Shown here in pieces: positions 30,231 through 30,268 of a DNA stretch of 64,000 nucleotides. The notes beneath the pieces are model-generated. The model did not search any database. It saw only the letters and a list, made by a program, of their open reading frames with translations, and was not told the DNA's origin. The stretch covers positions 558,001 to 622,000 of the forward strand of contig NC_019977.1 of assembly GCF_000328665.1 (NCBI RefSeq). The letters are read 5' to 3'. A program made the translations under genes and the position numbers. The DNA is from Methanomethylovorans hollandica DSM 15978. GTDB lineage: Archaea; Halobacteriota; Methanosarcinia; Methanosarcinales; Methanosarcinaceae. Positions within the stretch are counted from its first letter, which is position 1, and each line of letters begins with the position of its first letter.

Positions 30231-30268
30231 TCTCTCTCTCTCTCTCTCTCTATATATATATATATATA
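30231..30268 (-). repeat. Dinucleotide microsatellite (TC)10(TA)9 in the archaellin promoter region
   Basis: On the plus strand ten TC units (30231-30250) adjoin nine TA units (30251-30268). Read in the direction of the archaellin gene this is (TA)9 then (GA)10, about 85-120 bases before the ATG. The TA run is itself a possible TATA box. Confidence 0.9.

Follow-up and report, generated by a model that had tools for sequence, protein, structure and literature searches.

The archaellin-like gene on the minus strand of the window (the whole 64,000-nt stretch of DNA analysed here) most likely starts translation at an ACG codon, perhaps with an in-frame inner ATG as a second start. Upstream of it lies a compound dinucleotide repeat. 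Taken together, the comparisons make it probable that a microsatellite private to this lineage has replaced the proximal TATA-like box and start-site region of the gene, and that a Shine-Dalgarno-like GAGGG places translation on the ACG. The features concerned are as follows, in window coordinates.

29271–30170, minus: stand-alone archaellin-like gene, from ACG to stop, 299 codons without the stop codon
30144–30146, minus: inner ATG, codon 9, possible second start; invariant in the ACG group
30147–30167, minus: codons 2–8, AAA GCA AAT AGA AAG CAT TCA (KANRKHS), supported by codon-position bias of changes
30168–30170, minus: proposed ACG start codon, from comparative evidence
30178–30182, minus: Shine-Dalgarno-like GAGGG; spacing to the ACG 7 nt, pairing with the archaeal anti-Shine-Dalgarno −6.7 kcal/mol
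30230–30251, minus: (GA)11 tract, (CT)11 on the plus strand; probable start-site or 5' leader region; the genome's only GA tract of at least 14 nt
30251–30268, minus: (TA)9 tract, where the relatives have their conserved proximal TATA-like box
30341–30348, minus: distal TATA-like box TTTAAATA, intact, with a similar box in most relatives

A stand-alone archaellin-like gene

The ATG-based open reading frame (29271–30146, minus) contains an Arch_flagellin domain (PF01917, E 1.2e-30), scores above the cut-off of the archaellin/type IV pilin N-terminal model TIGR02537, and finds its best sequence matches in solved archaellins (E 8e-27). The gene has both marks by which an archaellin was recognized, the Arch_flagellin domain and a class III signal peptide. 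The sequence-only reading had placed the repeat in front of the archaellin gene, and the domain bears this out; the gene is, however, a stand-alone paralogue outside the archaellin cluster. In fact, four other PF01917 genes are clustered at C2:871492–876264, about 283 kb away, and the gene falls in a clade separate from the major archaellins (tree support 0.999). Stand-alone archaellin genes have been described in archaea (PMC4858521). With the major archaellins (FlaB/ArlB) of Methanosarcinaceae the gene shares the PF01917 domain, the class III signal peptide, the KAN motif after the start codon and the AQ|MGIGTLI cleavage region, but it has a clade of its own, ACG where they have ATG, and its own conserved locus beside genes of the cyclase and Ham1 families. 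In most relatives this neighbourhood includes cyclase-family, PHP-like, Ham1-family and Kae1-like genes.

Two other open reading frames of the window were observed on the plus strand. The one at 28637–29227, of 196 amino acids with a hydrophobic N-terminal stretch, adjoins the archaellin-like gene in many relatives (45–97% identity) and has no Pfam or NCBIfam match. The other, at 23532–26459, is predicted to encode a large surface protein that has three FIVAR stretches, a sub-threshold fn3 match, a Gly/Ser-rich stretch and a hydrophobic C-terminal end, and is poorly kept in the relatives' loci. An Rfam search over the window returned two tRNAs and nothing else.

Conservation and evolution of the ACG region

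The ACG was found through a striking conservation of the leader just before the ATG in relatives. It shares the reading frame of the ATG chosen by the ORF caller and precedes it by 24 nt. Many archaellins of the family begin ATG-AAA-GCA-AAY, while this gene and its orthologues have ACG-AAA-GCA-AAY; within this genome, the MKAN-type archaellins start ATGAAAGCAAAC (ATG AAA GCA AAC) and the window gene has ACGAAAGCAAAT (ACG AAA GCA AAT) at the corresponding place. The ATG-based frame misses codons 2–8 of the proposed signal peptide, and the annotated signal peptide is likely eight residues short.

The pattern GAGGG-N-CACGAAAGCAAAY was found in 38 of 112 genomes of the family, once in each, with no matches in the controls. 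A wider pattern, applied to 238 genomes of the class, matched 40, of which 39 in five genera were retained; the match in G215 was left out because its sequence is unlike the start of an archaellin. ACG-KAN occurs once per genome in these 39, except for one extra gene in G050. In the relatives, GAGGG lies 5–7 nt before the ACG. A stop codon stands a few codons upstream of the ACG in most orthologues, and in most no ATG, GTG or TTG start precedes the inner ATG, with chance exceptions in two loci (L002 and L007). In L002, from Methanolobus, a one-base deletion brings an ATG that lies 12 nt before the ACG and overlaps the Shine-Dalgarno into the frame of the gene.

Changes were mapped on a tree constructed with the codons after position 20 of 37 distinct orthologues. 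The ACG shows no change at any base, the third included, in 37 of 37 sequences. Later codons carry a mean of 9.4 third-base changes, and only four of the 274 gap-free ones are invariant (three ATG or TGG and one CAG). Codons 2–7 show 3, 9 and 23 changes at their first, second and third bases (p = 9e-5, one-sided binomial test), a bias shared with the gene's remaining codons (723/442/2587). This p-value is a guide only, since the test assumes that changes are independent and was picked with the alignment already in view. The bias weakens when codon 8 is included (8/17/27, p = 0.004), and the 30 nt upstream of the ACG show no periodicity (42/45/41). Furthermore, each of the 37 sequences has a Shine-Dalgarno site before the ACG; the mean pairing with the archaeal anti-Shine-Dalgarno is −6.8 kcal/mol before the ACG and −0.6 kcal/mol before the inner ATG, and it is stronger at the ACG in every one of the 37 sequences; the values for this genome's own archaellins range from −5.8 to −8.1 kcal/mol.

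In the mechanism that we propose, GAGGG would place the ribosome on the ACG, at the exact position of the ATG in the MKAN archaellins of the family, and the initiator tRNA would start there with low efficiency. The product would carry a 16-residue class III signal peptide beginning (M)KANRKHS, and the in-frame ATG eight codons past the ACG may act as a second start. An alternative is that the ATG at 30146 is the sole start and the conserved GAGGG..ACGAAAGCAAAY a leftover or a leader RNA element. The inner ATG is indeed invariant, a signal peptide of eight residues may still be long enough for processing, and the third bases of the first four codons are unusually conserved as well, to which an RNA-level constraint may contribute. 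Nevertheless, sole use of the inner ATG is improbable, since Shine-Dalgarno pairing before it is almost nil, codons 2–7 evolve like coding sequence, and the KAN motif is the start of AUG archaellins, with frame and spacing kept across five genera; nor does a leader element gain from the search for covarying RNA structure around the start, which returned 0 covarying pairs. A 5-bp hairpin, TGCAC/GTGCA, is possible over the inner ATG (window 30144–30125, minus) in most relatives, without covariation.

Initiation at the ACG thus remains the preferred reading, and the inner ATG suggests itself as an additional site. All 37 ACG sequences have M at codon 9 with neighbouring codons varying, as against 27 of 62 AUG-started MKAN archaellins (the others have L in 26, I in 5 and F in 4), and this comparison suggests that the inner ATG itself is also used. 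Two orthologues from a further genus (G071 and G073) carry ATGAAAGCAAAT in place of the ACG, starting ATG AAA GCA AAT, and have F or L at codon 9; their branches are long, and they group with Methanomethylovorans at a support of 0.92. Once cut by the archaellin peptidase, the products of the ACG and of the inner ATG would have an identical mature form, which does not reveal the start that was used.

G050, of the Methanolobus group, has a further archaellin gene in which ACG replaces ATG (C7:210261–211040; L111:2762–3541, minus). It has a strong Shine-Dalgarno (−9.1 kcal/mol), I at codon 9 and no usable inner ATG. Its place among AUG archaellins in the tree points to two or more origins of the ACG, although this copy could be a decaying one.

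We know of no C-to-U editing of archaeal mRNA. ACG is the editable form of AUG, and a C-to-U change in the mRNA could turn one into the other as in plant chloroplasts, where such editing creates start codons (PMC9845219). Direct near-cognate initiation is simpler, and editing as the explanation here is extremely improbable.

A private dinucleotide repeat at the promoter

On the plus strand, (CT)11 at 30230–30251 is followed by (TA)9 at 30251–30268 with one base in common, and an imperfect TC extension of the (CT)11 tract reaches down to 30223. In the sense of the gene this reads (TA)9(GA)11, and 83 nt separate its end from the ATG at 30146. The sequence-only reading had described (TA)9 next to (GA)10 at 30231–30268; the repeat is present there and far beyond chance, and its TA count holds, but its GA count falls one unit short. 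In 100 dinucleotide-preserving shuffles of the window, neither the (CT)11 nor the (TA)9 tract occurred. The genome (2,714,013 bases in two contigs) was examined by pattern search for GA and TA tracts; over these 2.71 Mb, GA tracts of at least 14 nt occur at this site alone and TA tracts of at least 16 nt at three places. A shorter TA tract lies about 190 nt before the clustered archaellin at C2:874835 (locus L037); the region is AT-rich, and the tract may be due to chance.

The upstream regions of 36 distinct orthologues were aligned, comprising this gene and 35 relatives, with one genome per species. Named relatives belong to Methanomethylovorans, Methanolobus and Methanococcoides, and others to Methanosarcinaceae. 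As had been proposed from the sequence, the tract falls at the promoter, for the alignment puts it on a conserved TATA-like box. This proximal box, TTAATATA[C/G]TAT, is found with at most one mismatch in 35 of 35 relatives (exact in 31, off by one base in the other four) and lies 63–83 nt before the ACG in most orthologues. The 64,000 nt of the window contain no match to it, even with one mismatch, and the repeat occupies its place. A second box, TTTA[A/T]AT, lies 135–206 nt before the ACG in most relatives. The repeat occurs in none of the 35 relatives' upstream regions, that of the closest relative (L001, 94% protein identity) included, and a scan of the loci of 18 relatives for dinucleotide runs of at least five units gave a single hit, which lies 558 nt away from the gene in one locus. 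Its absence from all the relatives' upstream regions indicates that the repeat is recent and private to the lineage.

A recent compound microsatellite would thereby have taken over the proximal TATA-like box and the start-site region. The TA tract itself is most likely the working TATA box of the gene, with a transcript that would start inside the GA tract or immediately downstream of it. Alternatively, the repeat is neutral debris and the gene is driven from the distal TTTAAATA box at 30348–30341, with roughly 150 nt of leader. That box has a canonical sequence, and most relatives carry a similar one, yet we regard this alternative as rather unlikely: conservation is better for the proximal box, present with at most one mismatch in all 35 relatives, and the TA tract is still able to act as a TATA box. 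The mRNA would start from the TA tract or from the distal box, and the TA tract is the preferred reading.

Slippage of the repeat had further been proposed to switch the promoter, and with it the archaella, on and off. The tract does sit on the promoter position and is unique in the genome. However, archaeal core promoters have no two-hexamer spacing (−35/−10) to break, unlike those of bacteria in which slippage alters it. Gain or loss of a TA unit would keep the TATA box and move the transcription start by about 2 nt; slippage would thus shift the start site and the leader length by a few bases and not switch the gene. The genome also encodes MutS, which together with the retained TATA box argues against an on/off switch. 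Since the repeat is found only in this one genome and has no counterpart even at 94% protein identity, a conserved switch is unlikely, and its role as an archaeal phase switch was rejected; that TA/GA slippage turns the gene on and off at all is very improbable. Moreover, the gene stands apart from the archaellin cluster, and turning it on or off would not have to affect archaella.

The likeness to bacterial phase-variable promoters with simple sequence repeats, such as those of the fimbrial genes of Haemophilus influenzae, lies in a dinucleotide repeat, a core promoter and a surface-filament gene. Here, in contrast, the promoter is archaeal and lacks the hexamer spacing, the repeat is not conserved, no length variation is known for it (one genome per species was compared), and the gene is a stand-alone paralogue. 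In the literature searched, nothing on point was found on archaella phase variation and Methanolobus archaellins.

Proposed near-cognate initiation and dosage of a minor subunit

Non-AUG starts are known, as in the AUU of bacterial infC (IF3) and the CUG or GUG of chloroplasts. The present case resembles them in having a weak start codon that has long been kept, and differs from them in that the codon is ACG, the organism an archaeon, and the product a surface-filament protein without an obvious autoregulatory link to initiation. To our knowledge, gene finders accept only ATG, GTG and TTG, which makes a conserved ACG start invisible to annotation. Where AUG starts were switched in prokaryotes, a reconstruction gave GUG or UUG and, in rare cases, CUG or AUU, and ACG is not among the codons named (PMC5622118); alternative starts tested in Haloferax were GUG and UUG (PMC4574771). 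The literature searched, mostly without subscription papers, contained no description of an archaeal ACG start.

Inefficient initiation would be in keeping with a minor subunit of which the cell needs few copies. That the ACG and the invariant in-frame AUG form a fixed low-output start, dosing a minor filament subunit in five genera of Methanosarcinaceae, is a proposal to which we give an even chance. If true, it would represent a deeply conserved ACG start in Archaea. The natural ACG in 39 genomes, together with the AUG orthologue group, makes near-cognate starts as a means of setting protein dose in archaea directly testable.
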